64,000 nt of DNA from Desulfobulbus oligotrophicus (lineage in GTDB: Bacteria > Desulfobacterota > Desulfobulbia > Desulfobulbales > Desulfobulbaceae): NCBI RefSeq assembly GCF_016446285.1, contig NZ_CP054140.1:539501-603500 (forward strand), in the 5' to 3' direction. The position numbers and the translations under genes are program-made. This document shows, piece by piece, positions 14,313-34,647 of this stretch. The notes under the pieces were generated by a model. That model was not told the DNA's origin. It saw nothing but the letters and a program-made list of their open reading frames with translations, and did not search any database. Every line of letters begins with the position of its first letter. Within the stretch, counting starts at the first letter, position 1.

Positions 14313-15368
14313 ATGGACTGGCTTTATATCCTCATGCCCATCGCAGGCGTCAAAATTTTCTGGCCTGGCCTCATTATTCTCGGCGTCGGCGTTGGTATCA
14401 TCGGTGGCTTTTTTGGACTAGGCGGCGCCTGGATGGTCACTCCAGGTCTGAACATGCTCGGTTTCCCCATGGCCTTTGCCATTGGTACCGATATTGCGCA
14501 CATGGCAGGTAAATCGCTCATTTCCACTATGCGACACGGCAAGTTCGGTAACGTCGACTATAAGCTCGGCCTTATCATGCTCGTAGGCACGATTATCGGT
14601 TTTGAGGTCGGTGCCCAAATGGTCATGTGGCTGGAACGGATCGGATCTGTTGAAAAAGTTGTTCGCTGGATCTACATAGCCCTTTTAGCATTGATTGCCT
14701 GGATGGTCTTCCACGATGTGTTCAAACGCAAAGCCAAGGCACGGGCTGCTGCGGCCAAGGGTGAAACACTTGACGCCACTGCAACGGGTATCGAGTGGCA
14801 CAAAACTCTGCACAAAATTAAAATTCCCCCGATGGTTCATCTCAAAGCGGCCGGCATATACTGTTCTGCCTGGCTCCCCATCATCGTCAGCTTTCTTACC
14901 GGCTGGCTGGCCGGCATCCTCGGTATCGGCGGTGGCTTAATCCGTATGCCCGCGCTGATCTATCTCATAGGCTGCCCCACCCATGTAGCCGTTGGTACAG
15001 ACCTGTTTGAAGTTGCAATCTCCGGTCTCTACGGTGCGCTCACATACACCTATAAAGGCCGTACCGAACTGGTCGCTGCCATGATCATGCTCGTTGGTGC
15101 CGCAATGGGTGCGCAGGTCGGTGCTGTTGCCACCAAGTACATCAAAGGCTACGGCATCCGTATAGCCTTCGGCCTGGCAGTCATTGGTTGTGCGATCTCT
15201 ATTCTGATGAAGCTGGTCCAACCCTGGCTGCCTCAGTTTAAAAAAATGCTCGACATTGGTGCGACCGCTCTGATCCTTGGTCTGGTTTCCCTGATGTCCC
15301 TCTACATCTTTATTCGCATGGTCCAGGGTGTTAGAGAAGAGTTGCGTCGTAAGCAGCAATCCGCCTAA
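14313..15368 (+). CDS. TauE/SafE family anion permease
   Basis: A 351-residue integral membrane protein with 8-9 TM helices arranged as two repeats, each with a glycine-rich signature: GGFFGLGGAWMVTPGLNMLG near residue 30 and AGILGIGGGLIRMPALIYL near 205. The family includes exporters or importers of sulfite, sulfoacetate and related anions. A cytoplasmic loop of about 50 residues separates the repeats. Substrate cannot be read from sequence; sulfite or another sulfur oxyanion fits the presumed sulfate-reducing or sulfur-metabolising lifestyle. Second gene of a five-gene operon. Confidence 0.88.
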   Translation: MDWLYILMPIAGVKIFWPGLIILGVGVGIIGGFFGLGGAWMVTPGLNMLGFPMAFAIGTDIAHMAGKSLISTMRHGKFGNVDYKLGLIMLVGTIIGFEVGAQMVMWLERIGSVEKVVRWIYIALLALIAWMVFHDVFKRKAKARAAAAKGETLDATATGIEWHKTLHKIKIPPMVHLKAAGIYCSAWLPIIVSFLTGWLAGILGIGGGLIRMPALIYLIGCPTHVAVGTDLFEVAISGLYGALTYTYKGRTELVAAMIMLVGAAMGAQVGAVATKYIKGYGIRIAFGLAVIGCAISILMKLVQPWLPQFKKMLDIGATALILGLVSLMSLYIFIRMVQGVREELRRKQQSA

Positions 15369-15396: not shown

Positions 15397-16014
15397 ATGA
15401 ACTGTAAACATATTCTGATTTCACTTGCTGCAGCCACCCTTGCCTTTTCACTGGCAGGATGCAACAAGGACGACTATCCCAAGATTGAACAAGGTCGAGT
15501 TATTGCCTTTAATAAAGAGGCCAAGGAAGTCACCCTGCTACACGACAGCGCCATGGATCCGAGGAATCCGGTGTATGATGTGTTACCGCCCGCTCTTTTC
15601 AAACTGCCTGTCGATCCGGCTGAAACCGGGGCACTGCCCGTCGCCGGACAGCGGTTGAAGCTGGATGTTAATAAAAAAATTGTGGTGATTTTTGACACCG
15701 CCACCCAGAAGATAGTCGAACTGCCGATCACAGTTGTCGATCTGCAGCAGCCCGTCGATAAGGACCATCCGCTGGTGTATGACAAACAAACCAACAAAGC
15801 AAAAAAATTCCCGGTGGTTGATCGTGATAAAAAAACCGTCACCATCTATTCTGACCGTCAGAAGATGCTGTGCACCTTCTCCGTGCCTGATCAGTATCTC
15901 GATTATCCCGAAAGCACCTGGGATGCCGGTGATGAGGTACGGCTGACCTACCGAACTCCCGGGCAGTCGCTGCGCTTCATGAATATTACGAAAACCGACA
16001 TTTACAAACGATAA
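15397..16014 (+). CDS. Predicted lipoprotein, possibly DUF4881
   Basis: A 205-residue lipoprotein with signal peptide ending LAFSLAGC and a mature beta-rich domain (RVIAFNKEAKEVTLLHD ... VVDRDKKTVTIYS). Its pattern recalls the uncharacterised DUF4881 lipoproteins of Desulfovibrio-type bacteria, but this is from memory. CAAGGAGA lies 7-12 nt before the ATG. Encoded 28 bp after the TauE gene, it could be a periplasmic partner of the permease. Confidence 0.65.
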   Translation: MNCKHILISLAAATLAFSLAGCNKDDYPKIEQGRVIAFNKEAKEVTLLHDSAMDPRNPVYDVLPPALFKLPVDPAETGALPVAGQRLKLDVNKKIVVIFDTATQKIVELPITVVDLQQPVDKDHPLVYDKQTNKAKKFPVVDRDKKTVTIYSDRQKMLCTFSVPDQYLDYPESTWDAGDEVRLTYRTPGQSLRFMNITKTDIYKR

Positions 16015-17342: not shown

Positions 17343-19034
17343 ATGGAAAGGAACTATCGCAAACTCTGGTGGCAACACTGTCTGGCCATCATCGGTTTCT
17401 CCGTTATCCCGCTCGTTTTCATCAATCTCTCCCTGTACAAACTCTTTGACAATATTTTTATCGGCAAAATGACCGAGTCGTTGCGGAGTACGGTGGAGAA
17501 CCGTCGCGATGCCATTGACCTTTTTTTCAACGAACGCGTTGCCCAGCTCTATACTGTAGCCAATACCAACACCTTTAAGCAGCTGACCGATGAAACCTAT
17601 CTCAGCAAGGTGTTTGAGATCATGCATGCCAAGTCCACATCCTACATGGATATTGGTATCATCGACAATGAGGGGCGTCATCTCGCCTATGTCGGTCCCT
17701 ATTATGATCTCCTCAAACAGGTCAACTACAGAAATGAACCCTGGTTTATTGCCGTCAAGGCCAACGGTATTTATATCAGCGACATCTTCATGGGCTACCG
17801 GAAGGTTCCCCACTTTATTATTGCCGTTATGGTCAGAGAAAAGGGGGTTCCGTGGATCCTCCGCGTGACGATCAACCTTAAAAACATCGACGATATCGTT
17901 CACAAAGCCTGGTTTGGAAAATTAAGTGACGCCTTCATTATTAACAGCCAGAATGCACTGCAAACCAAGCCCCGGTTTGGTGGTGAATTCCTCAATCCTC
18001 CGATTGCCCCGGAATTCGATACCGGTACGATGAAATCCCAGGGGTATCCTGATTACTCTTCGGTGATCAACACCAAAGTGGAACGGATCAAAAGCGGGGT
18101 CTTTGATGCCTTTTTCGCAGCAGCCAAGATCCACAATACCCGATGGGTCCTGGTGATCAAAGAAGACCCCAATGAACTCCTCGGCGATCTGCAAAAAGGA
18201 AAGTACTGGGTCATCCTGCTCAGCATACTTGGCTTTGCCGTCATCACCTCAGGCGCCGCCCTGTTCACGAACGGGCTGATCAACCGGATCAGGGACACTG
18301 ACCGCGAAAACGCAGCCCACTCCGATATGCTTCTCCAGGCCAACAAGATGATCGCCCTCAGTAAAATGGCCGCAGGCATTGCCCATGAGGTCAACAACCC
18401 CCTGGCTTCAATTGCAGAGAAGGCTGGATGGCTGAAAGACCTGCTGGCTGAGGAAGACCTGGCCGGTAACCCGAATTACGCTGAATTTAACGACTCTGTT
18501 GACAAGATTGAACACCATGTTGAACGGGCGAGAAAGATCATCCACAACCTGCTCGGCTTTGCCCGGCGAATGGAACCGGCCAAGGAAAAAATAAATGTCA
18601 ACAACCTGTTGGATGAAACCACCGGATTTCTCGAAAATGAAGCCCGCTATGTCAACATCCAAATTGTTAAACAGTATGCGGATAATGTCCCGGTTATAAC
18701 CAACGACCTCTCCCAGATTCAACAGGTGGTGCTCAATCTGCTCAACAACGCCATCGATGCCATTGGACGCGACGGCATTATCACGGTCTCCACCTGCTAT
18801 CACGAAAAAACAGATGCAGTGGAGATCGGTATCGGCGATACTGGCAAAGGTATTGCTGCAGGCGAGCTGGACAAAGTTTTTGACCCATTCTTCACTACAA
18901 AAGAGGTGGGCAAGGGAACCGGCCTGGGCCTCTCAATCTCCTACAGCATCGTTGAAAAATTAGGCGGTAAACTCAAGGTCAAGAGTAAGGTAGGCGAAGG
19001 GACGGTCTTCACCCTCCTGTTGCCGAAACAGTAA
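17343..19034 (+). CDS. Cache-domain sensor histidine kinase 1
   Basis: A 563-residue membrane kinase. TM near residues 12-35, a periplasmic double-Cache region (36-285) with the motif [14 protein letters not shown] shared with the other two kinases of the island, second TM near 288-312, H-box [14 protein letters not shown] (His348), then N-box LNNAID, DTGKGI and [14 protein letters not shown] lies 7 nt before the ATG. It is followed after 6 bp by a single-domain response regulator, its likely partner. It should sense a small organic ligand in the periplasm; which one is not visible. Confidence 0.9.
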
Positions 19035-19540: not shown

Positions 19541-21334
19541 ATGAGAGTTTGGGATACCAGCCACCTGCTGGATGACATACCCCAAAAAAAGGATGACGTC
19601 TCCGATGCCGAGCACGTTTTTGACCCGATCGACAGTCAGGTCAATGTGCAGCGCATCAGACAGCATTTTAAACAGCTCCGAACACGGTTGGTGCTTGGGT
19701 TGATTCTGGGGTTTCTTCTGCCCAATGCCCTGCTGTCGGCCTATTTCCATTTTCAGTTCACCCATACCCTGATGGAAAGCGCTAAACTCAATTTAGCCGC
19801 AGTCGCAGAAAGCCAGAAAAATACCATTGACCTCTATCTGCAGGAACGGGTGGTTAATATCTACAACCTCTTTCATAACAGGGATTTTTCCCTCAGGCCA
19901 AACCAGGAACAGATGGACAACTATTTGGCCACTCTGCTGCAGTTCAATGACGGTTTTGTTGACGTCGGTTTTTTCGATCCACGGGGCATTCAAATCGGTT
20001 ACGCCGGCCCCCACCCTAAACTGCTGGGCCGTAACTACAGTAAAGAACAGTGGTACCGGAATCTGATCAAAGAACAGAAAAGCTATCTGATCAGCGATAT
20101 TTACATGGGTTTCCGTAAGATTCCCCATTTCACCATTGCCACAAAACAGCAGTTCAACGGCCGTCCCTTTGTTATGCGAGCCACCCTTGATCCTGACAAA
20201 TTCTACATTTTCCTTCGCGCGATCAGTCATGGAAAGGATGTCGAAACAACGCTGATTAATCGTAAAGGGCAATATCAGGTTGTTGACCCTGGCCGCAGTC
20301 AGGCCATCGGGAGCGGTGATTTTATCCCCCCTGCCTCCGAATCTTCGGGAGTAAAAGATATTGAACGCGACGATCAGAACATGTTGGTGGCCTATGCCTG
20401 GCTCACGGAAACCCCATGGGCACTGAAAGCTGTGCAGCCGGTAGCTGTTGCCCAGGCCGGTATGATGAAAACCCGGTTAGTGCTGACCATCAGCCTGGTT
20501 ATAATCAGCGTGCTGATCTCCATTATGGTGTACCTTACCATCAAAAAATTAGTGAGCCGGGCGCAACGCATGGCTGAAAAAGGACATCAGTTGCAGGAGA
20601 TGCTTGCCCATGCCTCCAAACTGGCCTCCATCGGTGAGCTCGCCGCCGGTGTTGCTCATGAAATCAACAATCCGCTTGCGATTATCATGGCAACCAGCGG
20701 GGTCATCCGCGACATGCTCAACCCGGAATTTGAACTCGATCACAGTCCGGAAGCCATTTACCAGGAGCTTTTCGTCATTGATGCTGCTGCCAACAGGGCA
20801 AAAGGGATTACCAGAAAATTACAGGATATGGGAAAGAGTCGTGTGCCCAGTGTGGTGGAATGCGATGTTAACAGCTTGATCGACGAGGTGGTCGGCAACC
20901 TCAAAAAAGTCGAGTTTAAACCTAAGCACATCGACATAATCTACCAGCTCGCACCGGATCTGCCTCCGATCCTTGCCGAACCGGAACCACTGCGTCAGGT
21001 GTTTTCCAACATCCTCATCAATGCCGGTGATGCCATTGACGACAGGGGCACCATCACAATAACCTCCGGATATAAAGAGGCAATGGTCAGCATAACCATT
21101 GCTGATACCGGCAGAGGCATACCCCAGGAAAACATACAGCGTATTTTCAGCCCCTTTTTCACGACCAAGGGCGGCGGACGAGGGACCGGCCTGGGCTTGA
21201 GCATTGCCGCCAGTATCGTCAAATACCTTGGTGGAACGATCAAAGTGAACAGTATCCCCGGAACAGGCAGCGCCTTTACAATCCTGCTCCCTGCCAACAG
21301 TCAGGTCAAGCAATCCATTAAAACCCCTTTATAG
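19541..21334 (+). CDS. Cache-domain sensor histidine kinase 2
   Basis: A 597-residue paralogue of kinase 1. It has an extra 45-residue hydrophilic N-terminus, TM near residues 48-70, a periplasmic double-Cache region with ISDIYMGFRKIPHF, TM near 312-335, H-box AGVAHEINNPLAI (His373), and ATPase motifs NAGDAID, DTGRGIP and [11 protein letters not shown]. The start at 19541 has no strong Shine-Dalgarno; an internal start nearer the first TM is possible. It is paired with the response regulator 21 bp downstream. Confidence 0.9.
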   Translation: MRVWDTSHLLDDIPQKKDDVSDAEHVFDPIDSQVNVQRIRQHFKQLRTRLVLGLILGFLLPNALLSAYFHFQFTHTLMESAKLNLAAVAESQKNTIDLYLQERVVNIYNLFHNRDFSLRPNQEQMDNYLATLLQFNDGFVDVGFFDPRGIQIGYAGPHPKLLGRNYSKEQWYRNLIKEQKSYLISDIYMGFRKIPHFTIATKQQFNGRPFVMRATLDPDKFYIFLRAISHGKDVETTLINRKGQYQVVDPGRSQAIGSGDFIPPASESSGVKDIERDDQNMLVAYAWLTETPWALKAVQPVAVAQAGMMKTRLVLTISLVIISVLISIMVYLTIKKLVSRAQRMAEKGHQLQEMLAHASKLASIGELAAGVAHEINNPLAIIMATSGVIRDMLNPEFELDHSPEAIYQELFVIDAAANRAKGITRKLQDMGKSRVPSVVECDVNSLIDEVVGNLKKVEFKPKHIDIIYQLAPDLPPILAEPEPLRQVFSNILINAGDAIDDRGTITITSGYKEAMVSITIADTGRGIPQENIQRIFSPFFTTKGGGRGTGLGLSIAASIVKYLGGTIKVNSIPGTGSAFTILLPANSQVKQSIKTPL

Positions 21335-21355: not shown

Positions 21356-21778
21356 ATGAACAAGAAGGAACGCGCATTCAAAGTATTGTTAGTTGATGAC
21401 GAAGATGTCTTTAGAGAGGCAACAGCCCGGCAGTTGTCGGTACGCGGGTTTATCGTTCAGACTGCTGGTGACGGTGAAACCGCTGTTAAAATGGTAACCG
21501 ACGATCCTCCGGAAGTGGTCGTGCTTGACCAGCAGATGCCCGGTATGCATGGTTCGGACACTTTCATTGCAATCAAAAAGATCAATCCACTGATCGAAGT
21601 CATCATGCTTACCGGTAATACCAGCGTAGACAATGCCATAGAACTGATGCGTATGGGCACTTTCGATTATCTGATGAAGCCGATCAATATCGATGAACTG
21701 CTTTATAAAATCGAGGACGCCTATACCCGAAAAAAACTTAACGAAAAGCAGCAGCGAGAAGTTGATCAGCAGCATTAA
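21356..21778 (+). CDS. Single-domain response regulator 2
   Basis: A 140-residue receiver domain without output module: LLVDDEDVF, phospho-acceptor Asp58 (VVVLDQQMPGMHG), MLTGNT and LMKPINI. Gln59 and His65 in the acceptor loop differ from the usual MPxMDG pattern, but the key Asp, Thr and Lys remain. It sits between kinase 2 and the first PEP-synthase-like gene, which makes that protein a candidate output (inference). Confidence 0.9.
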   Translation: MNKKERAFKVLLVDDEDVFREATARQLSVRGFIVQTAGDGETAVKMVTDDPPEVVVLDQQMPGMHGSDTFIAIKKINPLIEVIMLTGNTSVDNAIELMRMGTFDYLMKPINIDELLYKIEDAYTRKKLNEKQQREVDQQH

Positions 21779-21832: not shown

Positions 21833-24493
21833 ATGCTGAAAAAACTGGCTACATTTTCTAAAAAATTTCTCTTTCTTAACCAGGAAGAACATGATCCGGT
21901 TTTGGAAGAGGAAGAGGTGGAAGCTCTGCGGCTGACCTTCAAATCACGTTACCACAACTTCAAATTGCTCCTGGCCGCCAACACCCGTGTTCTGGAAGCC
22001 ATGGCTGATATTGAACGGGCTTTGCAGGGTAACGAATCCTTCAGTATGTCCTTTGTTCAAACACGCTGCACCACGATTTCGGTCAATGTGTTTCGTATGA
22101 TCAACAGTATGGAGGTTATTTCCCCCGGAAAATACTCTGCCCTCAAAGACAGTTTTGCTGCCATTCAAAAACAGATCGACGGCCTTCTTGACGCTCGTAA
22201 ACAGATCACTGACAATCGACTGGTTATCCCCATCACAGCCCTGAGCAGCGAAATGACGGAACTGGTCGGCGCCAAAATGGCCAAACTGGGCGACGTTAAA
22301 AACAGGCTCCACATGCATGTTCCCGATGGATTTGCAATCACCGCAGCCGCACATGAGATGTTCATGCAGGCAGGCGGCCTCCAAAAGGAAATCGCTCGAC
22401 TCTTCCAGGTGGCCGGTTCTGATGAGGATCGCAACCTTGATCTGGTCAGTTCCCAGATTCGCCAGCTGATCATGGCTTCTGAGGTGCCTGATCCCATCTA
22501 TAGAGCGGTGGTGGAAGCGTATTCCGCCATGAAGGCTGCCAACAACAATCAGGAAATCCGCATGGCAGTGCGAAGCAGTGCTTTTGGAGAGGATGCGGAA
22601 AACACCTCCTTTGCCGGGCAGTATCGAAGCGAGCTCAACGTCAGTTTTTCACGATTTTTCTACTATTACAAGCAGGTACTTGCCTCAAAGTACAGTGTTC
22701 AGGCAATTACCTACAAACTCAACCGTGGTTTTCGAGACGAAGACATTGCCATGTGCGTTGGGTGTCTGGCCATGGTCGATGCCGTGGTCGGCGGAGTTAT
22801 CTATACTCAAAGTCCCCTTGACAATAAAGATGACGCCATCTACATCAACGCCACCTGGGGCCTGCCTAAAGCTGTGGTGGACGGCAATGACCTGTGCGAT
22901 ATCTTTGTCGTGTCACGCGATGACAACCTGACCATCCTGCGGCGAGAGGTCCACAACAAGAGCCATCAGATTGTCTGCCTGGATGGCGAGGGATATGCCC
23001 GCACCGCCACAACCGAAGAACTGGCTGACGCCCCGTCGCTCACCGACGAACAGATCCGTGATCTCGCTGACCATGCAATCCGTATCGAGCAGTACTATTA
23101 CGATACACCCCAAGATATCGAGTGGGCCATTGATAGCCAGGGTAAAATCTATATTCTTCAGTCCCGCCCCCTGCAACAGTTAGAGGCTGTCCTCCCCGGA
23201 CCTGAATTAGACCTTAAACGTTTCGAATCTTCCCTGCTTGTAAACGGCGGCATCAATGCCAGCCCCGGGGTTGCCAGCGGTAACGTCTTCAAAGTAGCCA
23301 AAAAGGTTGATATCCTGCAGTTCCCTGAAGGGGCGGTACTGGTCGTTGAGCAGGCCTTACCCACCTGGGCGCCGCTGGTGGCCCGGGCGGCCGCTGTGGT
23401 CTCCGAGCAGGGCGGATTCGCCGGCCACCTGGCCAACGTTGCCCGCGAATTCGGCATTCCGGCCATATTTGGTGCCGCCGGTGCCATGGCTCAACTGCAC
23501 AACGGTGATGCGGTTACTGTTGCGGCCGATCTCTGCCGTGTGTATCTCGGTAATATCGGACCTCTGCTGGAATGGACACGACCGGTGCCCAAACTGATGT
23601 TGGGCAGCCCGGTGTTCGAATCACTTGAAGCAGTGAGCAAGCATATTATCCTCCTGAATCTCCTTGACCCGGATTCACGGGACTTTCAGCCACAAAACTG
23701 CCGGACCTTCCATGACATCACCCGTTTCATTCATGAAAAATCTGTAGTCGAGATGTTCAACTTCGGCAAAGATCACAGCTTTTCCGAACGATCCAGCAAA
23801 CAGCTGTACTATCGAGTACCAATGAACTGGTGGCTTCTCAACCTTGATGACGGCTTTACCCACGAGATCCACGGCAAGTACGTCAAACTGGAAGATATAG
23901 CCTCGATCCCGATGCTGGCCTTCTGGGAAGGGTTTGCCGCCATTCCCTGGGACGGCCCCCCGGCCATGGACGGCAAGGGCATGACCTCAATCATATTTCG
24001 TTCCACCATGAACACCGCCCTGGTGGCTGGTGTTAAATCAAAATATGCGGATCGTAACTACTTTATGGTCTCAAAAAATTTTTGTACCCTCAGCTCCCGG
24101 TTAGGGTATCACTTCTCCACCATGGAAGCCATGGTCAGTGAAAGATCAAGCGAAAACTACCTGGGCTTCAAATTCAAAGGGGGAGCGGCAGATTTTGAAC
24201 GCTGCCTGGGACGAATCCACTTTATACGCGAAATTCTGGAGCGTTACAGCTTTCGTGTGACGGTGATCGGGGATCACCTTGACGCCCGCACCGAGGGTCG
24301 CAACATGCAATATATGCTCAGCCGTCTCAAGATTCTGGGCTACCTGACCCTACACACCCGACAGCTCGACATGATTATGGGGAATACTTCCCTGGTTGGT
24401 TACTACATGAAAAAACTCACCACCGACATTGATTCATTACTCAACGCAGCAGATAACGACCATATCGGCGACCAGTCACTCATGTCATCGTAA
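21833..24493 (+). CDS. PEP/pyruvate-binding dikinase-like protein A
   Basis: An 886-residue protein. Residues 1-130 form a helical domain; about 140-450 is a PPDK_N-type ATP-grasp domain with AVRSSAFGED (Arg247), SFAGQ and the terminal DIEWAIDSQGKIYILQSRP; about 475-575 is the swivelling phosphohistidine domain with GGFAGHLANVAREFGIP (catalytic-type His532). The C-terminal 300 residues (with CRTFHDITRFIHE) are not the PEP-binding TIM barrel of PPDK or PEP synthase. ATP-driven autophosphorylation of His532 is therefore plausible, but the usual pyruvate/PEP half-reaction is doubtful. It follows kinase 2 and regulator 2 and is a paralogue of the protein at 25052. Confidence 0.85.
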   Translation: MLKKLATFSKKFLFLNQEEHDPVLEEEEVEALRLTFKSRYHNFKLLLAANTRVLEAMADIERALQGNESFSMSFVQTRCTTISVNVFRMINSMEVISPGKYSALKDSFAAIQKQIDGLLDARKQITDNRLVIPITALSSEMTELVGAKMAKLGDVKNRLHMHVPDGFAITAAAHEMFMQAGGLQKEIARLFQVAGSDEDRNLDLVSSQIRQLIMASEVPDPIYRAVVEAYSAMKAANNNQEIRMAVRSSAFGEDAENTSFAGQYRSELNVSFSRFFYYYKQVLASKYSVQAITYKLNRGFRDEDIAMCVGCLAMVDAVVGGVIYTQSPLDNKDDAIYINATWGLPKAVVDGNDLCDIFVVSRDDNLTILRREVHNKSHQIVCLDGEGYARTATTEELADAPSLTDEQIRDLADHAIRIEQYYYDTPQDIEWAIDSQGKIYILQSRPLQQLEAVLPGPELDLKRFESSLLVNGGINASPGVASGNVFKVAKKVDILQFPEGAVLVVEQALPTWAPLVARAAAVVSEQGGFAGHLANVAREFGIPAIFGAAGAMAQLHNGDAVTVAADLCRVYLGNIGPLLEWTRPVPKLMLGSPVFESLEAVSKHIILLNLLDPDSRDFQPQNCRTFHDITRFIHEKSVVEMFNFGKDHSFSERSSKQLYYRVPMNWWLLNLDDGFTHEIHGKYVKLEDIASIPMLAFWEGFAAIPWDGPPAMDGKGMTSIIFRSTMNTALVAGVKSKYADRNYFMVSKNFCTLSSRLGYHFSTMEAMVSERSSENYLGFKFKGGAADFERCLGRIHFIREILERYSFRVTVIGDHLDARTEGRNMQYMLSRLKILGYLTLHTRQLDMIMGNTSLVGYYMKKLTTDIDSLLNAADNDHIGDQSLMSS

Positions 24494-24528: not shown

Positions 24529-24903
24529 ATGTCAACCATGATTCGCATGCTACTTGTTCCAGCAATGTGTTTTCTGGCAGTAACAGCCAATGCTGACGAT
24601 AAGGCTGCCATTGAAAAACATGTCAATGAAATGGTGAGAGCCATTAACCAGGGTAAAGAGGCGGCAAATTACCCGGCTGATGCCTACACACCCTATGTCT
24701 TTATCATGGAGCCAAGCGGCAAGTTGATTGTGCATCCCTTTCTTGTCGGCGAGTATCTTCAAGAGAAAGCTGCCCCGGTTCATTCAGCCCTGCAACGGGC
24801 AACGACCAAGGGGGTCTGGGTTGAATATTTCTGGAAAGGCACACAAAAACAAACCTATGTGCGTAAAACCAACAACAATCTTATTGTGGGCAGCGGCCAG
24901 TGA
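24529..24903 (+). CDS. Periplasmic single-Cache-like protein
   Basis: A 124-residue protein with a cleavable signal (about 22 residues, ending ANADD) and one alpha/beta domain: a helix IEKHVNEMVRAINQGKEA, then YTPYVFIMEPSGKLIVHP and GVWVEYFWKGTQKQTYVRK, the pattern of a small ligand-binding Cache domain without membrane anchor or kinase. It lies between the two dikinase-like genes, so it may bind the same ligand as the neighbouring kinases and present it to them (inference). Confidence 0.7.
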   Translation: MSTMIRMLLVPAMCFLAVTANADDKAAIEKHVNEMVRAINQGKEAANYPADAYTPYVFIMEPSGKLIVHPFLVGEYLQEKAAPVHSALQRATTKGVWVEYFWKGTQKQTYVRKTNNNLIVGSGQ

Positions 24904-25051: not shown

Positions 25052-27670
25052 ATGACCACCATTCTCGGGAATCTGCGACAATTTTTAACCGACATCCGTA
25101 TCCGTTACAGTAAGGAGAGCCCTGTCGACAACCTCTCGGAGATGAACGCGTTATTTCGTTTCCGTTACAGTCTCTTTAAAGAATTATTAGCTGCAAATTC
25201 AGAGTTGCTCACCGTGCTTTCCGACCTGGATGAAAAACTCAAAGGCGAGCACGTCTTTGGCCTGTTCTATATCAATAATCAGGTGAACAAATCGCTCAAA
25301 TATGCCTTTCAGATGGTGAAGAGCCTGAACGTCATGTCAGGCGGCAAACATCGCGGCCTCTACGACAGCCTGGAAGAGATCAACAACCAGATCAAGGCAA
25401 TCATTGCAGAGCGTAAAGCAGAACAGGCTCCGCAGGCAGTGATGCCGCATGACCGGATCTTTCTCAAAGACGCTGACTGGGCCGGCGGTAAAAACGCCAA
25501 CCTTGGAGAAATTAAAAACTGCCTCAACATCCCTGTTCCTGAAGGATTTGCCATAACCACCAAAGGATTCCACGACTTTTTCGACTACAATGACCTCAAA
25601 GAAGAGATCATCAAACAAAAAAACCTTCTTTATATCAACGAAATAGATCTGCTCAACAATGTCAGTGCCGAAACTCTGGAGTTAGTACGATCCAAACCAA
25701 TGCCACCGGCGCTCGAAGAGGAGATCACTGCGGGATGTACGGCTCTCTGGGGGGATGACCAGGAGGTTCTGGTTGCCATGCGGAGCAGTGCTGTCGGTGA
25801 AGACGGAGATATCTCCTATGCCGGTCAGTTCCTGACCATCCTTGGTGTGACCCGTTCAAAAATTTGTGAGGCATACAAATCGATCATTGCCAGTCTTTAT
25901 TCCGCTCGTTCCATCTCCTATCGCAGCTCCAAAGGAGTATACGATGAAGATCTTGCCATGGCGGTGGCATGTCTAAAAATGGTGGACTCCCAGGCAAGCG
26001 GTGTACTCTACACCCGGCATCCCTACGATATTACGAATGAGAACATTCTGATCAATGCAGTCTGGGGCCTTGGTCCTTACGCGGTTGATGGTGTCATCTC
26101 TCCGGACACGTACACAGTGACCAAAGATGATGACCTGTCGATCACAGAAAAAAATGTCTCCACGAAACCTGTGCAACTGGTCCTTAACAAACAGGGAGGT
26201 GTGGAGGAGCGGCCAGTTCCGGCAGAGCTGCAGAGTGTTGCCTGCCTGGACGATGAACACATCCGGATTCTCGCTGGTTATGGTGCAGCCCTGGAGAGCC
26301 ATTACAAGTGTGCCCAGGATGTTGAGTGGGCATTGGATGCTGAAGGGACGCTCCTGATCCTGCAGTCAAGGCCACTTAAAATACAGAGCCCGAAAAATTT
26401 CTGCCTGCTGAAGGCAGCTCCGCTTAAAGGCTATCGCCTCATCGTTGATACCAGCGAAATAGCTGCTCAGGGAGTAGGAGCCGGCCCTGTCCGCCAGGTG
26501 GAATCGGTGGCGGACCTGACCGATTTTCCGCAAGGAGCGGTCTTGGTGGCAAAACATTCCTCTCCGGAGTATGTGCTGGTGATGCGCACCTGTGCCGCGA
26601 TTATCGTCGAGGCAGGTAGTGTCAGCGGTCACATGGCCTCATTGGCCCGCGAATTTAACGTGCCGACCATTATTTGCAACCAGTCTGTGATCGACCTGCT
26701 TCCCTCCGAAACAACGGTCACCGTCGATGCCTACACAGGCCGGGTTTATGAGGGTACTGTCCAGGAACTGCTGGCGGCTGTTAAAAAGGATGAAGCCCAC
26801 ATGAAAGGCACACCTGTGTACGAACAGCTGCAACGGGTTGCAAAATATGTCATCCCACTGAACCTAGTCAACCCCGATGCTCCGGAATTCACCCCTGCCG
26901 GTTGCACGACCCTGCACGACCTGGCTCGGTACTGCCACGAATTTTCGTACAAAGAGATGTTTCAGATCAGTGATCTGGCCTCCAAGTTCCATGGATGGTC
27001 AATGAAACTTGATGCCCTGCTGCCAATGGATATTCACCTGATTGATCTTGGCAGCGGTCTGAAGGAAGGAGCAACCATCAGCTGGAACGGTGTCAGAGTT
27101 GACGATATCGTCTCTGCACCGTTTCTGGCACTGGTTCAGGGCATGCTCAACAAAGATCTGCAGGCCGTGGAACCTCGGCCTATCAACCTTTCCGGTCTTT
27201 TTTCAGTGATGCGGGAACAGACCCTGACGCCAGGTCACCATGGCGAACGGTTTGGTGACCGCAGTTATGCGATCATCGCTGACAAGTATCTCAATTTCAG
27301 CTCCCGTGTCGGGTACCATTACAGTGTCATAGATGCCTACTGTGGTGATACCGTCAACAAGAACTATATTACATTTTCTTTCAAAGGCGGGGCTGCGGAT
27401 GATGTCCGCAAGAACAGAAGAGTCCGTGCCATCTCACTGATCCTCGAACAGGAAGGATTCAGAGTGAATGTCAAAGGCGACAAGGTTGATGCACGACTGC
27501 AGAAGTATCCGAATTCGTACATCGAGAGCCGTATAGACCTACTCGGCCGCCTGCTTATCTTCACCCGTCAACTCGATATGCTCATGACTTCGGAAAAAAG
27601 TGTCGAATGGGCTGCAGAAAATTTTGTGGCAGGTAACTACCGCCTAACGGCTCCGCCGGTAGAGGCCTAA
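25052..27670 (+). CDS. PEP/pyruvate-binding dikinase-like protein B
   Basis: An 872-residue paralogue of protein A with the same order: N-terminal helical domain (FRYSLFKELLAANSELL), ATP-grasp domain with AMRSSAVGED (Arg244), SYAGQ and DVEWALDAEGTLLILQSRP, phosphohistidine domain with EAGSVSGHMASLAREFNVP (His527), and the special C-terminal domain with CTTLHDLARYCHE (His622, His629). It also lacks the PEP-synthase TIM barrel. GAGGAGG lies about 9 nt before the ATG. Divergence from A while keeping both active-site regions suggests two functional, non-redundant proteins. Confidence 0.85.
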   Translation: MTTILGNLRQFLTDIRIRYSKESPVDNLSEMNALFRFRYSLFKELLAANSELLTVLSDLDEKLKGEHVFGLFYINNQVNKSLKYAFQMVKSLNVMSGGKHRGLYDSLEEINNQIKAIIAERKAEQAPQAVMPHDRIFLKDADWAGGKNANLGEIKNCLNIPVPEGFAITTKGFHDFFDYNDLKEEIIKQKNLLYINEIDLLNNVSAETLELVRSKPMPPALEEEITAGCTALWGDDQEVLVAMRSSAVGEDGDISYAGQFLTILGVTRSKICEAYKSIIASLYSARSISYRSSKGVYDEDLAMAVACLKMVDSQASGVLYTRHPYDITNENILINAVWGLGPYAVDGVISPDTYTVTKDDDLSITEKNVSTKPVQLVLNKQGGVEERPVPAELQSVACLDDEHIRILAGYGAALESHYKCAQDVEWALDAEGTLLILQSRPLKIQSPKNFCLLKAAPLKGYRLIVDTSEIAAQGVGAGPVRQVESVADLTDFPQGAVLVAKHSSPEYVLVMRTCAAIIVEAGSVSGHMASLAREFNVPTIICNQSVIDLLPSETTVTVDAYTGRVYEGTVQELLAAVKKDEAHMKGTPVYEQLQRVAKYVIPLNLVNPDAPEFTPAGCTTLHDLARYCHEFSYKEMFQISDLASKFHGWSMKLDALLPMDIHLIDLGSGLKEGATISWNGVRVDDIVSAPFLALVQGMLNKDLQAVEPRPINLSGLFSVMREQTLTPGHHGERFGDRSYAIIADKYLNFSSRVGYHYSVIDAYCGDTVNKNYITFSFKGGAADDVRKNRRVRAISLILEQEGFRVNVKGDKVDARLQKYPNSYIESRIDLLGRLLIFTRQLDMLMTSEKSVEWAAENFVAGNYRLTAPPVEA

Positions 27671-27937: not shown

Positions 27938-29578
27938 ATGCATATAAAAGAAAAAAATTACGTGCGGCTCAAAAGACTCCTGTCTGCCGGATTTTTTGTC
28001 AGCGGCATCCTGCCGATCATCATCATAGCCTTTGGCTCAATATACAATTTTTACCAGCTGTCCCGATACGATATCGAGCTTGCAGCCCGTCAGGTAACAG
28101 AGAATCGAAGTGATGCCATCAATACCTTTCTTCGCAGTCAGGTGAGTTTTCTCTCTACGCTGATCAATCTGTATGATCTTGACTACCTGAAGAACCAGAA
28201 AAATTTTGAAAACCTTTTCCTGACCATCAATCAAGAAGACAAGGAAGATCTTGTTGATCTCCATTTAATTGATACCAACGGCAAACAGCTGGCCTATGTC
28301 GGTCCCTACCTGAGCAAGGTTCAGGGGAAAGAGTACAAGGATGCTCCCTGGTTTAATGAAGTCCTTGTTCGCGGAACCTATGTCAGCGATGTCTTCAGCG
28401 GATTTCGAAACTATCCCCACTTTGTCATTGCGATCACCAACCCACTGAAGACCTTTGTTCTGCGCGCCACGGTCAACTCCGGTATCTTCAACTCACTGCT
28501 CCACAGCGCCCAGATCGGAGCAGGTGGCGATGCCTTCATTCTTAATTCAAACGGTGAATATCAGACACCAAGTTTACAGAAATCGTCCAAACTCAACATC
28601 ATCGAGCGCCAGCTCCTGAAACACCACAGTGGTACCGAACTGGTTGCAGACAACGAATATCTGTATGCCAGCAAATGGCTCAACGGCGACATGTGGCTAC
28701 TGGTAGTTAAAACAAAAATTACTGATTCGCTTGACGGCTACTACATGCATCGCAACCGGATTATCTTCATTGTTATTGCGACTGCAGTCGTCTTTCTTGT
28801 TATCGGCAGCGGCATCAGTCGTTTCATTGTTGAGCGCATCCGACGTGCTGACCGGGAGCAGACAGCCCTTGACCAGCAGATGGCTCACATCGAAAAAATG
28901 GCAAACATTGGACGTCTTGCGGCCGGTATTGCCCACGAGATCAACAATCCGCTCCAGCTTATTCAGATGCAGGCAGGATGGATCGATGAGCTGCTTCAGG
29001 AAGAGAAAAAAGAGAATATCGAAAATTACGATGAATATATGGGGGCAGTGGCCAAAATCCGGAAGCATGTCAACCGGGCCGGGACAATCACCCATCGGCT
29101 GCTTGGTTTTTCCCGAAAAATAAGCGCGGAATATGATGTTCAGATCAATGAGTTAATCAAAGAAACAGTATCTTTTCTTGAGAACGAAGCACGCAGTAAT
29201 AACATTGCTCTCAACCTGCGGCTACAGGAGGACCTTCCTACCATCAGAACCGAAGGCTCACAGGTGCAACAGATTCTTCTGAACCTGATTGAAAACTCTT
29301 TAGACGCGGTTGGTGAAAACGGTCAGATCGATATTGTTACCGAAACCAGAGGCAATGAGGTGTTCATCCTGATCATTGACAACGGACCAGGCTTGAAACC
29401 TGAGGTGCTGGATCGAATCTGGGAACCTTTTTTCACAACCAAAGAACCTGGTAAAGGAACCGGGCTCGGGCTTTCTATCTGCAGTGATATCGCTCACAAG
29501 TTAGGTGGAACGATTGTCGCTGAAAATCGGGCTCAGGGCGGAGCACGTTTCACCCTGACACTGCCAAGAAGAAATTAA
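27938..29578 (+). CDS. Cache-domain sensor histidine kinase 3
   Basis: A 546-residue kinase of the same type as kinases 1 and 2. TM near residues 15-37, periplasmic double-Cache region with VSDVFSGFRNYPHF, TM near 275-298, H-box AGIAHEINNPLQLIQ (His333), and ATPase motifs ENSLDAV, DNGPGL and [11 protein letters not shown]. No good Shine-Dalgarno precedes the ATG. It is convergent with the response regulator on the other strand 100 bp downstream, unlike kinases 1 and 2, which precede their regulators on the same strand. Confidence 0.9.
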   Translation: MHIKEKNYVRLKRLLSAGFFVSGILPIIIIAFGSIYNFYQLSRYDIELAARQVTENRSDAINTFLRSQVSFLSTLINLYDLDYLKNQKNFENLFLTINQEDKEDLVDLHLIDTNGKQLAYVGPYLSKVQGKEYKDAPWFNEVLVRGTYVSDVFSGFRNYPHFVIAITNPLKTFVLRATVNSGIFNSLLHSAQIGAGGDAFILNSNGEYQTPSLQKSSKLNIIERQLLKHHSGTELVADNEYLYASKWLNGDMWLLVVKTKITDSLDGYYMHRNRIIFIVIATAVVFLVIGSGISRFIVERIRRADREQTALDQQMAHIEKMANIGRLAAGIAHEINNPLQLIQMQAGWIDELLQEEKKENIENYDEYMGAVAKIRKHVNRAGTITHRLLGFSRKISAEYDVQINELIKETVSFLENEARSNNIALNLRLQEDLPTIRTEGSQVQQILLNLIENSLDAVGENGQIDIVTETRGNEVFILIIDNGPGLKPEVLDRIWEPFFTTKEPGKGTGLGLSICSDIAHKLGGTIVAENRAQGGARFTLTLPRRN

Positions 29579-29677: not shown

Positions 29678-30106
29678 TCACCAGGCTTTACTCCCTAAGA
29701 TCGAACGGATTTTGGCTTCGGTCTCCTTCTCAACCAGCATGATCTTCCGTGCATGTGCTTTTTTAATTTTCTCTGTCAACTCCTGGATGTCAGCCGGCTT
29801 TTCAAGAAAATCGGCTGCCCCCAACCTCATAGCCTGAACACTCTTTTCCACTGTACCGTGGCCCGTCAGAAGAATAACCTGAAGATCCGGATCAATTGCC
29901 TGCAGCCTTTTCAGAGCCTCCATGCCGTCCATCTCCGGCATTTGCAAATCAAGGATAATGGCATCAAAACCACCTTCTGCGGCGAGATGCAGACCATTTT
30001 CAGCTGATGTGGCAGTGGTAACATCAATATCTCGATTTTTCATCCGCTCAGACATAACCTCGAGAAAATCTTGTTCATCATCGATTAGCAGTACTTTCTC
30101 TGACAT
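29678..30106 (-). CDS. Single-domain response regulator 3
   Basis: A 142-residue receiver with LLIDDEQDF, phospho-acceptor Asp53 (ILDLQMPEMDG), LLTGHG and LEKPAD, plus a short helical C-terminal tail of about 25 residues without a DNA-binding motif. The start at 30106 is supported by AAGGAG 6-7 nt upstream; a longer frame to 30253 adds an unrelated cysteine- and phenylalanine-rich stretch and is rejected. It is convergent with kinase 3 and is its likely partner. Confidence 0.88.
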   Translation of the reverse strand: MSEKVLLIDDEQDFLEVMSERMKNRDIDVTTATSAENGLHLAAEGGFDAIILDLQMPEMDGMEALKRLQAIDPDLQVILLTGHGTVEKSVQAMRLGAADFLEKPADIQELTEKIKKAHARKIMLVEKETEAKIRSILGSKAW

Positions 30107-30183
30107 GGTCTTCTCCTTTAAGTGGTTAAACAGTGGCACTGTTATCAAGACAACCAGTTCCCGGCATATACTTATAAGCATGA

Positions 30184-30202
30184 AACAAGGGCAAGCCTTG
30201 TT
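30184..30202. other. Hairpin upstream of response regulator 3
   Basis: AACAAGG and CCTTGTT pair around a 5-nt loop about 80 bp upstream of the regulator gene. It could be an operator or a leader hairpin; no T-run is present. Confidence 0.3.
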
Positions 30203-30385
30203 CAAAAACAAAAAGCATGAACCTTCCTGATGTTGCAGGCTGTCCAGCCTCAACGGAACAGGAAGAATCCATGCTTCTGGTTGACTCGTTATTTCGATTA
30301 TAAAAAATTTACCGCAATAAGTATGATAGCACTGTTACCCTTTCAAGCGATCACCAAAAACAACGGCCATACCTGTACCTGATTA

Positions 30386-33312: not shown

Positions 33313-34647
33313 ATGCAGCCGAAGAAGCAGATTTCCAGTCCCCAGCTGGACATGTTCCGCAACCGTTTGGAGAGCATTCTCAACCACCGACATGAATTGT
33401 ACCGGCTGAGTGGGCTGATTGACTGGGGAGTTTTTGAGTGCGAGTTTGGCAAGCTGTATTCGGAAGACGGTCGGCCGGGGCTCCCGATTCGTTTGCTCGT
33501 AGGCCTGACCTACCTGAGTCATGCGTTCAACACGTCGGACGAAGAGACGGTACGGCGGTGGGTGGAGAATCCCTACCACCAATACTTCTGCGGCGAAGAA
33601 TACTTCCGACATGAGTTGCCGATCGATCCGTCTTCGTTGAGTCGCTGGCGAAAACGGATAGGCGAACAGGGATCGGAATTGATCCTGAAGCTGAGTGTGC
33701 AGGCAGGTTTGGCGAGCGGAGCGGTGGCGCCGGCCAGTTTGAAGCGGGTCATTGTTGACACGACCGTGCAGGAAAAGGCGGTCGCGTTTCCGACCGATTC
33801 ACGTCTGTACAATCGAAGCCGTGAACGGTTGGTTAAGCTGGCAGCGGCGTGGGGCATTCGTCTTCGGCAGAGTTACTCCCGCCTTGGACGTCAGGCTTTG
33901 TTGAAGGTTGGCCGGTATCTCCATGCCCGTCAGCGGCGCAGAGCCGGTCGTGAGATCAAGCGGTTGAAGACCTATTTGGGCAGGGTCTACCGGGACATTG
34001 TGCGCAAGATCGAAGACCAGCAGGCTCTTCGCCCCGTGTTTCTTCCGGAACTTGCCCTGGCCGAACGGTTGTTGACCCAACAACGGCAGGACAAGAACAA
34101 GCTCTACAGCCTGCACGCGCCGGAAGTGGAATGCATTGGCAAAGGCAAGGCGCACAAGAAGTACGAGTTCGGGGTCAAGGTGAGCGTGGCGACCACCAAT
34201 CGCGACAACTTCGTGGTGGGGATGTTGGCCGAACCTGGCAACCCCTATGATGGGCACACCCTGGCCAGGGCGATTGAGCAGGTGCAACGGATCACCGGCT
34301 GCACCGTTCAACGCAGTTTTGTCGACCGGGGCTACCGTGGTCACAAGATCAAAGAACCCCAGGTGTTGATCTCCGGTCGCAGGCGGGGAATGACACCGCA
34401 GATGAAGAAGGAACTCAAGAGACGCAGCGCCGTTGAGCCGGTGATCGGCCATATGAAGGCGGATGGCAAGCTTGGACGCAATTACCTGCTGGGTGAGTTG
34501 GGCGATAAAATCAATGCCCTGCTCTGTGGAGCAGGGCACAATATCCGTCTGATCCTCAAGAAGTTGAGGGAAAAATTGCTGCTTCTTTTTGTCGAATTGT
34601 TTTTGGCTCTCTGGAGCCGCCCCGATTGGCAGAAGAACGGTGCCTGA
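33313..34647 (+). CDS. IS5 family transposase
   Basis: A 444-residue DDE transposase. N-terminal DUF772-like region (FECEFGKLYSEDGRPGLPIR ... SLSRWRKRIG), first catalytic Asp in VIVDTTVQEKA, an Arg/Lys-rich insertion around residues 160-230, second Asp in FVDRGYRGH and the Glu in RRSAVEPVIGHMK. The frame is uninterrupted and all three catalytic residues are present, so it may be active. Codons are richer in G/C than in the surrounding pilus genes, which points to an outside origin. A small AGCCT/AGGCT hairpin at 33214-33227 lies between the left repeat and the gene, where it could block read-through from outside. Confidence 0.92.
   Translation: MQPKKQISSPQLDMFRNRLESILNHRHELYRLSGLIDWGVFECEFGKLYSEDGRPGLPIRLLVGLTYLSHAFNTSDEETVRRWVENPYHQYFCGEEYFRHELPIDPSSLSRWRKRIGEQGSELILKLSVQAGLASGAVAPASLKRVIVDTTVQEKAVAFPTDSRLYNRSRERLVKLAAAWGIRLRQSYSRLGRQALLKVGRYLHARQRRRAGREIKRLKTYLGRVYRDIVRKIEDQQALRPVFLPELALAERLLTQQRQDKNKLYSLHAPEVECIGKGKAHKKYEFGVKVSVATTNRDNFVVGMLAEPGNPYDGHTLARAIEQVQRITGCTVQRSFVDRGYRGHKIKEPQVLISGRRRGMTPQMKKELKRRSAVEPVIGHMKADGKLGRNYLLGELGDKINALLCGAGHNIRLILKKLREKLLLLFVELFLALWSRPDWQKNGA

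Follow-up and report, generated by a model that had tools for sequence, protein, structure and literature searches.

A dikinase-like protein of Desulfobulbus oligotrophicus with a conserved, family-specific domain in place of the PEP barrel

Sequence and model searches support two statements about protein A of D. oligotrophicus: that it keeps the front end of a dikinase, with an ATP-grasp and a swivel domain, and that its PEP barrel has been replaced by another, strongly conserved domain. This third domain is unmatched in the libraries searched. The gene lies in a stretch of 64,000 nucleotides, here called the window, within a string of permease, sensor kinase and receiver genes (Table 1).

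Table 1 Features of protein A and of the surrounding gene string (positions in the window).
Feature	Position	Strand	Basis
Dikinase-like protein A, 886 aa	21833..24493	+	ORF list, translation, Pfam
N-terminal all-helical part, residues 26-119	21908..22189	+	AlphaFold helices 26-64, 72-96, 103-119
ATP-grasp domain PPDK_N, residues 143-451	22259..23185	+	Pfam E 6.8e-83; conservation; structure match
Phospho-His swivel domain PEP-utilizers, residues 497-565	23321..23527	+	Pfam E 6.2e-18
His532 codon, expected phosphoryl carrier	23426..23428	+	Aligns with swivel-domain His of PEP synthases and RPH
Family-specific C-terminal domain (PEP-barrel replacement), residues 583-872	23579..24448	+	Sequence and model searches
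TFHDITRFIHE motif, residues 625-635, start of helix 626-647	23705..23737	+	Translation, AlphaFold, alignment A4
TauE/SafE permease, start of gene string	14313..15368	+	PF01925 1.4e-41
DUF4881 protein	15397..16014	+	PF16222 1.5e-73
dCache sensor histidine kinase HK1	17343..19034	+	Pfam
Receiver-only regulator RR1, 128 aa	19041..19427	+	Named by eye and BLAST grouping
dCache sensor histidine kinase HK2	19541..21334	+	Pfam
Receiver-only regulator RR2, 140 aa, directly 5' of A	21356..21778	+	Named by eye and BLAST grouping
Small Cache-like protein, between A and B	24529..24903	+	Pfam dCache_2 and sCache_2, both under cut-off
Paralog B (872 aa), built like A and 35% identical to it	25052..27670	+	Pfam, comparison
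Sensor histidine kinase HK3	27938..29578	+	Pfam; dCache_1 just under cut-off
Receiver-only regulator RR3, true start probably inside ORF	29678..30253	-	Named by eye and BLAST grouping

Domains of protein A

The PPDK_N domain carries K148, R247, S266, E430, Q443 and R445, with RSSA-x-x-ED and FAGQ at residues 247-263, and the catalytic-type His532 sits in the sequence SEQGGFAGH. Conservation was assessed on a set of 85 full-length sequences that includes A and B from the window (L001 and L002) and the genome's own C; alignment A4 used 71 of these, the other 14, mostly of odd length, having been excluded by choice, and alignment A6 excluded L016, L074, L077 and L001, with the window reference in place of the last. 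His532 is invariant in A4 (71/71), as are K148 and R247 in the 71-row alignment, in which position 266 is always S or T. The initial annotation had described RSSA-ED-FAGQ and the His532 swivelling domain as intact, and the Pfam domains, the position of the motifs and the constancy of H532 all agree with this. The invariance of H532, K148 and R247 also makes it very unlikely that the family is a non-catalytic scaffold or sensor that merely binds ATP, a reading favoured by a single tandem copy (L174:8611-11103, from a different genome) in which the RSSA-ED region is visibly lost. The only further Pfam match in protein A is ACT_5, far under its cut-off. The N-terminal helical part (residues 26-119) has no Pfam match; F43, L47 and N50 are invariant within it, and it is possibly a docking or dimer domain.

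The C-terminal domain is as strictly marked. A conserved TFHDITRFIHE-type motif with two histidines had been noted from the sequence, and both H627 and H634 prove constant, each of H627, D628, R631, H634 and E635 (HDxxRxxHE, residues 627-635) being present in 71/71 sequences of A4. To these are added a third invariant histidine, H760 (71/71 relatives), as well as R794 and D814; H760, the N-terminal helical part and the third paralog go beyond the initial annotation. On the alignment, histidines this constant (H627, H634 and H760) could equally well be catalytic residues or phospho-acceptors. As acceptor, the initial annotation had proposed a protein, an unusual small molecule or one of the motif histidines, three options between which the data do not discriminate. 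The domain with HDxxRxxHE is common to A, B, C and the protein of locus L166.

Residues 583-872 match neither Pfam nor any PDB sequence. When the whole genome was searched with PF02896 (PEP-utilizers_C) at E<=10, the sole match was the true PpsA at 1175174-1176136, with none in protein A or its two paralogs. In the last 300 residues of the AlphaFold model of protein A (pLDDT 86.6), the elements do not follow a (beta/alpha)8 order, and a second model, of the C-terminal domain, likewise shows no barrel order. A hidden PEP barrel was rejected on these negative Pfam and AlphaFold results. The initial annotation, which had held that the last 300 residues lack the barrel, is thereby upheld by Pfam, by the whole-genome control and by two models; the canonical barrel that it had named as contrary evidence is absent from the models, and the Pfam and structure comparison that it had proposed returned neither a Pfam match nor a significant PDB match. 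With Foldseek, the best E-value for the C-terminal model was 0.031 and 0 of 600 matches reached E<=0.001, the weak rows comprising phosphagen kinases (9fig, 9fhn, 4woe, 7vcj) and histidine kinases (DesK). With VIA-align, the best Z was 6.0, under the 7-8 usual for this tool with models that have no clear match, and the rows listed each cover a stretch of 62-134 residues, ferredoxin-like designs being frequent among them. Given these weak results, no fold is assigned to the domain, nor is it called a new fold.

Comparison with known dikinases

PEP synthase and PPDK (2ols, 1kbl) have an ATP-grasp domain, a swivel phospho-His domain and a third domain in the same order as protein A, and 2ols matches residues 129-574 (Z 40.1, rmsd 4.7, 382 aligned). 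By contrast, they have a PEP/pyruvate barrel, which protein A lacks, and the Thr two residues before the His, which has a regulatory role in these enzymes (PMC12167813, in excerpt), is A530 in protein A (A in 51, T in 12, S in 6 and V in 2 of 71 sequences). The best whole-protein models for protein A are nevertheless those of PEP synthase, as expected of a diverged PEP synthase or PPDK still binding PEP or pyruvate by unrecognised means; this reading is hardly credible, given that neither Pfam nor the structural model contains a barrel, that the score against TIGR01418 (PEP synthase) is 323.6 bits with a cut-off of 739.75, and that a barrel-bearing PpsA is encoded elsewhere in the genome.

In RPH-Lm (5hv3), as in protein A, the acceptor domain differs from that of PEP synthase. 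Its structure matches residues 126-573 (Z 39.8, rmsd 3.3, 420 aligned), and K22/R117/T136, described as critical for its first phosphotransfer (PMC4844700, in excerpt), align with K148/R247/S266. However, the His domain is C-terminal in RPH, after the RIF domain (PMC4844700, in excerpt), whereas it is central in protein A (497-565 of 886). RPH is absent among the 50 rows listed for the C-terminal model, and protein A scores 203.7 bits against NF041857 (RPH; cut-off 999). HpeHI, CreHI and PpsAB (phenylphosphate synthase) likewise combine an ATP-grasp subunit with swivel-His chemistry (HpeI, 9goj: Z 31.2, rmsd 5.4, 313 aligned), but the HpeHI type consists of two polypeptides and acts on phenolic substrates (PMC12167813, in excerpt), whereas protein A is a single 886-aa ORF. 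VadK (Rv1127c) is PPDK-derived, has no PEP domain and is a regulatory kinase by description; it consists of the ATP and His domains only (PMC13400623, in excerpt for both), whereas protein A adds a conserved third domain of 290 residues.

Distribution and gene neighbourhood of the family

The D. oligotrophicus genome holds three family members, A and B in the window and C elsewhere. Of 395 genomes sampled from the phylum (Desulfobacterota), 146 encode the C-terminal domain, with up to nine family copies per genome; a search of plasmids gave no match. In a scan of genome contigs, the named taxa among the best 80 of 343 confirmed relatives were Desulfobacterota, Deltaproteobacteria and Proteobacteria. 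The gene for dissimilatory sulfite reductase, dsrA, is present in 139 of the 146 genomes with the family versus 51 of the 249 without it, a link that partly reflects common ancestry. Apparent frames of 1833 and 1067 aa, considered as fusions that could name the acceptor, were rejected as upstream read-through with no extra domain recognisable by eye. A genuine C-terminal extension of ~190 aa occurs in L182, L183 and L184; a Pfam scan of the L182 extension gave a single match, under cut-off.

Neighbours were counted in 53 of 80 loci, those having 5 kb of upstream sequence. Of the 53, 39 have a TauE/SafE permease gene on the same strand no more than 5 kb upstream; downstream the figure is 3/42, the chance expectation being ~1.5% per side. 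In 11/53 loci, the available sequence shows no TauE up to 5 kb away in either direction. In the window, TauE is ~6.5 kb from A, and the pair of TauE and a membrane-anchored 230-aa protein that partners A elsewhere lies far off in this genome, with no dikinase in the 12 kb covered there. Kinases and receivers, TauE and the 230-aa protein apart, gene families recur in 7 of 80 loci at most, a count that DASS/CitMHS-like anion permeases reach (one member Pfam-scanned). A group of ~302-aa ORFs beside A (F302, 13 loci) was judged from its position, strand and look to be spurious, lying antisense to the 230-aa gene in loci of high GC content, and was discarded; in the count it was pooled with that gene.

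In 48/53 loci, the 5 kb upstream include a gene for a receiver or a kinase. This would suit a point of entry into a phosphorelay, in which the receiver-only regulators trade phosphate with phospho-His532 or with a C-terminal His and the dikinase is their ATP- or energy-sensing partner, as would the autophosphorylation of VadK, a truncated PPDK relative termed a regulatory histidine kinase (PMC13400623, in excerpt). We regard such an entry point as quite unlikely: in the window, as in many of the loci, histidine kinases adjoin the receivers, so that a phosphate donor is already present. Moreover, we know of no swivel domain that passes a phosphoryl group on to a receiver.

The gene layout of group C matches the published Desulfovibrio 'nitrate cluster': the gene order listed for that cluster is that of L166, and its gene kinds recur in cluster C here. 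DVU0246/Dde_0604 in this cluster has PPDK_N and a mobile domain, as does protein A, and adjoins genes for TauE, a receiver, a histidine kinase and a dual-specificity phosphatase. Unlike protein A, DVU0246 would, by its gene layout, belong with group C; its gene is annotated as 2235 bp, shorter than that of the 843-aa look-alike in L166. In Desulfovibrio, an insertion in any one of the permease, receiver and dikinase genes leads to nitrate resistance (PMC4001038, in excerpt, as for what follows). In D. vulgaris, mutants with insertions in DVU0246, DVU0247, DVU0250 and DVU0251 grew alike with and without 100 mM nitrate, and a DVU0245 mutant was inhibited in the 100 mM nitrate comparison; for DVU0250, pooled and single-mutant results conflict. 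In D. alaskensis, the nitrate fitness of the phosphatase mutant Dde_0605 was also raised (2.08), and the authors cite unpublished data that cluster mutants are mildly sick on thiosulfate. Given the Dde_0605 fitness and the DVU0250 conflict, the case for the dikinase itself being needed comes from D. vulgaris only. In the literature searched, DVU0246 is named in one paper, PMC4001038, and DVU0251 once in PMC3431258.

These data bear on a further possibility, that protein A resembles RPH or HpeHI in being a dikinase for small molecules, and that its C-terminal domain binds and phosphorylates an organic or inorganic anion moved by TauE and thereby traps or activates it. Dikinases with other third domains do phosphorylate small molecules, namely rifampin (PMC4844700, in excerpt) and hydroxyphenylethanones (PMC12167813, in excerpt); up to nine copies per genome would suit varied substrates, and the DASS/CitMHS-like permeases point the same way. 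However, nitrate sensitivity requires the dikinase gene (PMC4001038, in excerpt), yet phosphorylation of nitrate is not expected, and no additional gene family recurs beyond the limit given above, although rarer ones may include catabolic genes. We consider this possible, if on the unlikely side.

Proposed role and significance

The reading that we prefer, and hold to be about evenly poised between right and wrong, is that protein A is a dikinase with a swapped acceptor domain that, under two-component control, serves a TauE permease for sulfur oxyanions. It draws on the intact front end, the exchanged C-terminal domain, the upstream TauE genes, the co-occurrence with dsrA and the nitrate-cluster layout of group C; weighing against it are the loci with no TauE nearby, the distance of TauE from A in the window, the remote TauE pair, the conflicting mutant results, the 51 dsrA genomes that lack the domain and the part that common ancestry has in the dsrA link. 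Judging from conserved residues and homology, the ATP-grasp domain would bind ATP, load His532 and release AMP, and the swivel domain would carry the phosphoryl group to the C-terminal domain, where H627/D628/R631/H634/E635, H760, R794 and D814, singled out by their invariance, would form a likely second site. The family would work with TauE/SafE (TSUP) anion permeases in dissimilatory sulfur respirers, controlled by Cache histidine kinases and short receiver-only regulators. Phosphoryl transfer would most likely activate or gate sulfur-oxyanion transport by phosphorylating a component of the transport system; candidate acceptors are a transport-system protein or a small anion, and the family may use ATP to switch, or to supply, sulfur-anion transport. 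A more specific version, which we think unlikely, is an ATP-fuelled phosphorelay running from the swivelling His through the C-terminal domain to the transport machinery, which drives or gates the TSUP permease, is set by the receivers and is reset by the group C dual-specificity phosphatase. If true, this phosphorelay would be a sulfate-reducer counterpart, for sulfur oxyanions, of the sugar PTS.

Transport of sulfate, thiosulfate and sulfite across the membrane of sulfate reducers, and its control, are poorly known; TSUP permeases were present in 44/44 sulfate-reducer genomes surveyed, and prediction of their function was judged not feasible (PMC5840216, in excerpt). A dikinase that lies beside TSUP permeases, with as many as nine copies in one genome, offers a testable handle on transport control, with a bearing on the possible failure of nitrate against oil-field souring when cluster genes are lost (PMC4001038, in excerpt), and the dikinase family gains one more exchanged acceptor domain.

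The dikinase front half of A and its C-terminal domain

An open reading frame for the dikinase-like protein A was recovered exactly where the initial annotation had placed it (see table). Only two Pfam families exceeded the cut-off in A, namely PPDK_N (the ATP-grasp domain, E 6.8e-83) and PEP-utilizers (the mobile phospho-His domain, E 6.2e-18); both domains are thus retained, as had been proposed, with H532 invariant in all 71 sequences of the family alignment. K148, R247, E430, Q443 and R445 are likewise invariant in this alignment, and all 71 sequences have Ser or Thr at position 266. By alignment, K148, R247 and S266 are the counterparts of K22, R117 and T136 of the rifampin phosphotransferase RPH-Lm, which the report on that enzyme calls critical for the first phosphotransfer (PMC4844700). 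The sequence ahead of H532 agrees with T/SxxGGxxxH, the form around the His stated for dikinases (PMC12167813); across the alignment, 58/71 sequences have T or S at position 524, the second Gly of this motif is replaced by Ser in 33/71, and the site of the PEP synthase/PPDK regulatory Thr is Ala in 51/71. From these residues, the loading of His532 from ATP appears to be intact in A.

Likeness of A to RPH, HpeHI and PEP synthase lies in the first half, and by membership tests A is none of these. It scores 323.6 bits against the 739.75-bit cut-off of TIGR01418 (PEP synthase), alignments to the NCBIfam PEP synthase models reach approximately residue 576, and matches to PDB sequences (PEP synthases, rifampin phosphotransferase, HpeI and others) are confined to residues 128-614.

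The claim that the PEP/TIM barrel is missing held up in both sequence and structure searches. Across the complete 3.1-Mb genome, PF02896 (PEP barrel) gave a single candidate and a single match at E<=10, in the true PpsA; neither A, its paralog B in the window nor the third paralog C elsewhere in the genome was matched at E<=10 in this whole-genome search. The helix/strand list of the full-length AlphaFold model of A (pLDDT 86.6, pTM 0.76) lacks a repeated beta/alpha order past residue 583, and a separate model of residues 583-872 (82 sequences; pLDDT 82.3, pTM 0.72) agrees in showing no barrel order. The HMM and structure comparison suggested for residues 580-886 returned no Pfam match at E<=1 for the domain of A and no significant structural match: Foldseek found none at E<=0.001 with the 583-872 model, a second aligner reached a best Z of 6.0, and the 82-sequence profile had 0 matches to PDB sequences at E<=10. 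The best Pfam E value among the 82 members was 0.014; DUF5960, the commonest family (10 of 82, best E 0.016), was taken as a chance likeness. The fold of the C-terminal domain is unmatched in the libraries searched, and we do not claim it as a new fold. H627, D628, R631, H634, E635, H760, R794, D814 and D846 are each conserved in 71/71 sequences, which suggests an active site or a binding site in this domain.

Coordinates of A, its domains and other features discussed in the text (L, genomic stretches)
Feature	Position	Strand	Length
A	21833-24493	+	886 aa
PPDK_N of A	residues 143-451		
PEP-utilizers of A	residues 497-565		
C-terminal domain of A	residues 583-872		
Window ORF	33313-34647	+	444 aa
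C	2615730-2618141 (genome)		
Altered dikinase-like gene	L174:8611-11103	-	
Extended variant	L182:2571-5732		
Extended variant	L183:228-3425		
Extended variant	L184:2355-5729		
Long dikinase-like gene	L186:1235-5509 (own genome, stretch 1236000-1246000)		1424 aa
PPDK_N of L186 protein	residues 931-1213		
Phospho-His domain of L186 protein	residues 1326-1392		
TauE and companion	L187:4569-6552 (own genome, ~750568-752551)		426 and 233 aa
Intervening protein	L162:12009-12800		249-263 aa (three loci)
Intervening protein	L165:11562-12311		
Intervening protein	L174:14243-15016		

Members, spread and co-occurrence with dsrA

A and B, which are 35% identical, and C are the three members in this genome. 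A search of species genomes with the C-terminal domain confirmed at least 343 relatives, the best 80 of which were taken on. In a midpoint-rooted tree of 109 sequences, B, C and A fall into three groups, with support of 1.0 for the pairing of C with the relative in stretch L166, 1.0 for the C-plus-A side and 0.934 for the A side (80 sequences); several deeper branches are weak (down to 0.011).

The domain is present in 146/395 sampled genomes of the phylum, with up to nine copies per genome among ten chosen genomes inspected more closely. dsrA (TIGR02064), the dissimilatory sulfite reductase gene of sulfur respiration, was found at E<=1e-50 in 190/395 genomes, 188 of them over its cut-off. Both occur together in 139 of the 146 domain-bearing genomes, 51 have dsrA only and 198 have neither (Fisher p 4e-53, inflated by shared ancestry); of the seven domain-bearing genomes lacking dsrA, five are 62-80% complete and two (G297, G310) 97-100% complete. 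By genome family, dsrA occurs in at least one sampled genome of 40/40 domain-bearing families, with 14 having dsrA only and 48/102 neither, where 102 is the highest family label met, labels were copied by hand and shared ancestry again inflates the p-value.

Several variants and other dikinase-like genes were encountered. The altered gene in L174, the middle of three tandem dikinase-like genes, has by eye lost the RSSA-ED part of its ATP-grasp domain, retains the swivel His and carries HDLIHFAHE (Arg to His) as its C-terminal motif; its product is possibly a pseudo-enzyme partner. The extended variants bear an additional C-terminal part of ~190 aa, which in L182, scanned alone, has a faint, below-cut-off likeness to 3-keto-disaccharide hydrolase (E 0.0035). 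The long protein of L186, a further unassigned dikinase-like protein, has its phospho-His domain close to its end, and its gene adjoins a heavy-metal ATPase-like gene (by eye).

Gene neighbourhood and the nitrate cluster

In the window, the gene string reads TauE (TauE/SafE permease), DUF4881, unknown, HK1, RR1, HK2, RR2, A, Cache-like protein, B and HK3, with RR3 facing (HK, histidine kinase; RR, receiver-only regulator). Cluster C (L115) has on one strand the dikinase, a dual-specificity phosphatase, an NtrC-type regulator, a YkgJ-like protein, a receiver, a histidine kinase, TauE and a short TauE, all named by eye except TauE (PF01925) and the phosphatase (41% likeness to the L166 gene). 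A TauE permease is present in 62/80 loci and a ~230-aa protein, likely with an N-terminal membrane anchor (by eye), recurs beside it in 42/80; the true number is probably higher, others being masked by antisense ORFs. Where the locus extends 5 kb or more upstream (53 loci), TauE lies upstream within 5 kb on the same strand in 39/53 and a histidine kinase or receiver does so in 48/53; TauE is downstream in 3/42 loci with 5 kb there, against a chance expectation of ~1.5% per side from the TauE density of this genome (10 matches, counted as 8 genes). Because resemblance to A was the basis for choosing the loci, many of which are mutually related, these counts are not independent. TauE is absent within 5 kb in 11/53 (L005, L006, L008, L009, L020, L025, L029, L046, L071, L082, L084), six of which (L005, L006, L008, L009, L071, L082) have it farther off in the same stretch.

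TauE (PF01925) also occurs in L187 beside a 233-aa protein, by eye a match to the 230-aa companion of A in other genomes, with no dikinase within the 12-kb stretch. In L162, L165 and L174, the intervening protein separates other dikinase-like genes from a 307-320 aa TauE; in L162, scanned alone of this trio, it is Alph_Pro_TM (PF09608). The 444-aa window ORF is insertion-sequence transposase-like by eye.

For the nitrate cluster of Desulfovibrio (DVU0251-DVU0245), the published gene list gives TauE, a hypothetical protein, a PtxB-like protein, a histidine kinase annotated as a pseudogene, a 360-bp receiver gene, a 2235-bp PPDK-like gene and a dual-specificity phosphatase (PMC4001038). The same order is found in L166, which comes from one of the sampled genomes, on one strand: PF01925, a 224-aa ORF, PF12974, histidine kinase, 120-aa receiver, dikinase (PPDK_N and PEP-utilizers, motif IHDIVRFAHE; the partner of C in the tree) and DSP phosphatase. 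Transposon mutants of DVU0246, 0247, 0250 and 0251 grew equally with or without 100 mM nitrate, and the DVU0245 mutant was inhibited by it; pooled and single-mutant data disagree for DVU0250, and the D. alaskensis phosphatase gene gave a different result (Dde_0605, fitness 2.08) (PMC4001038). If the genes of D. vulgaris are ordered and oriented as in L166, a transposon in DVU0246 could silence no other gene but the downstream DVU0245, whose own mutant stays sensitive, so that the dikinase itself would be needed with TauE intact; the receiver is also too short for a DNA-binding part, and together this would favor protein-level control of the permease. The authors' sole proposal is that the cluster genes may let nitrate in through a leaky thiosulfate transporter (PMC4001038), and a later paper again implicates the loss of putative thiosulfate transporters in nitrate resistance (PMC9723548).

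Proposed phosphoryl transfer and its acceptor

This kind of gene is already known, being listed among poorly annotated genes in the nitrate-cluster paper (PMC4001038); in the literature surveyed, at listing, abstract or passage level, neither the C-terminal domain nor its phylum-wide link to TauE was described. A precedent for a role at the protein level is the truncated PPDK VadK, to which a regulatory kinase function has been ascribed (PMC13400623), although VadK lacks a third domain and A has one.

A signal may enter at the Cache kinases and receivers, whose genes are observed; ATP would, very probably, load His532, and the swivel domain, by analogy with PPDK and RPH, would move to the C-terminal domain, from which the phosphoryl group would pass to an acceptor. 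The main rival for that acceptor is a small molecule; the similar behavior of permease, receiver and dikinase mutants favors part of the transport system instead. Taken as a whole, a route by which A would pass phosphate to the transport system has, in our estimate, about an even chance of being correct.
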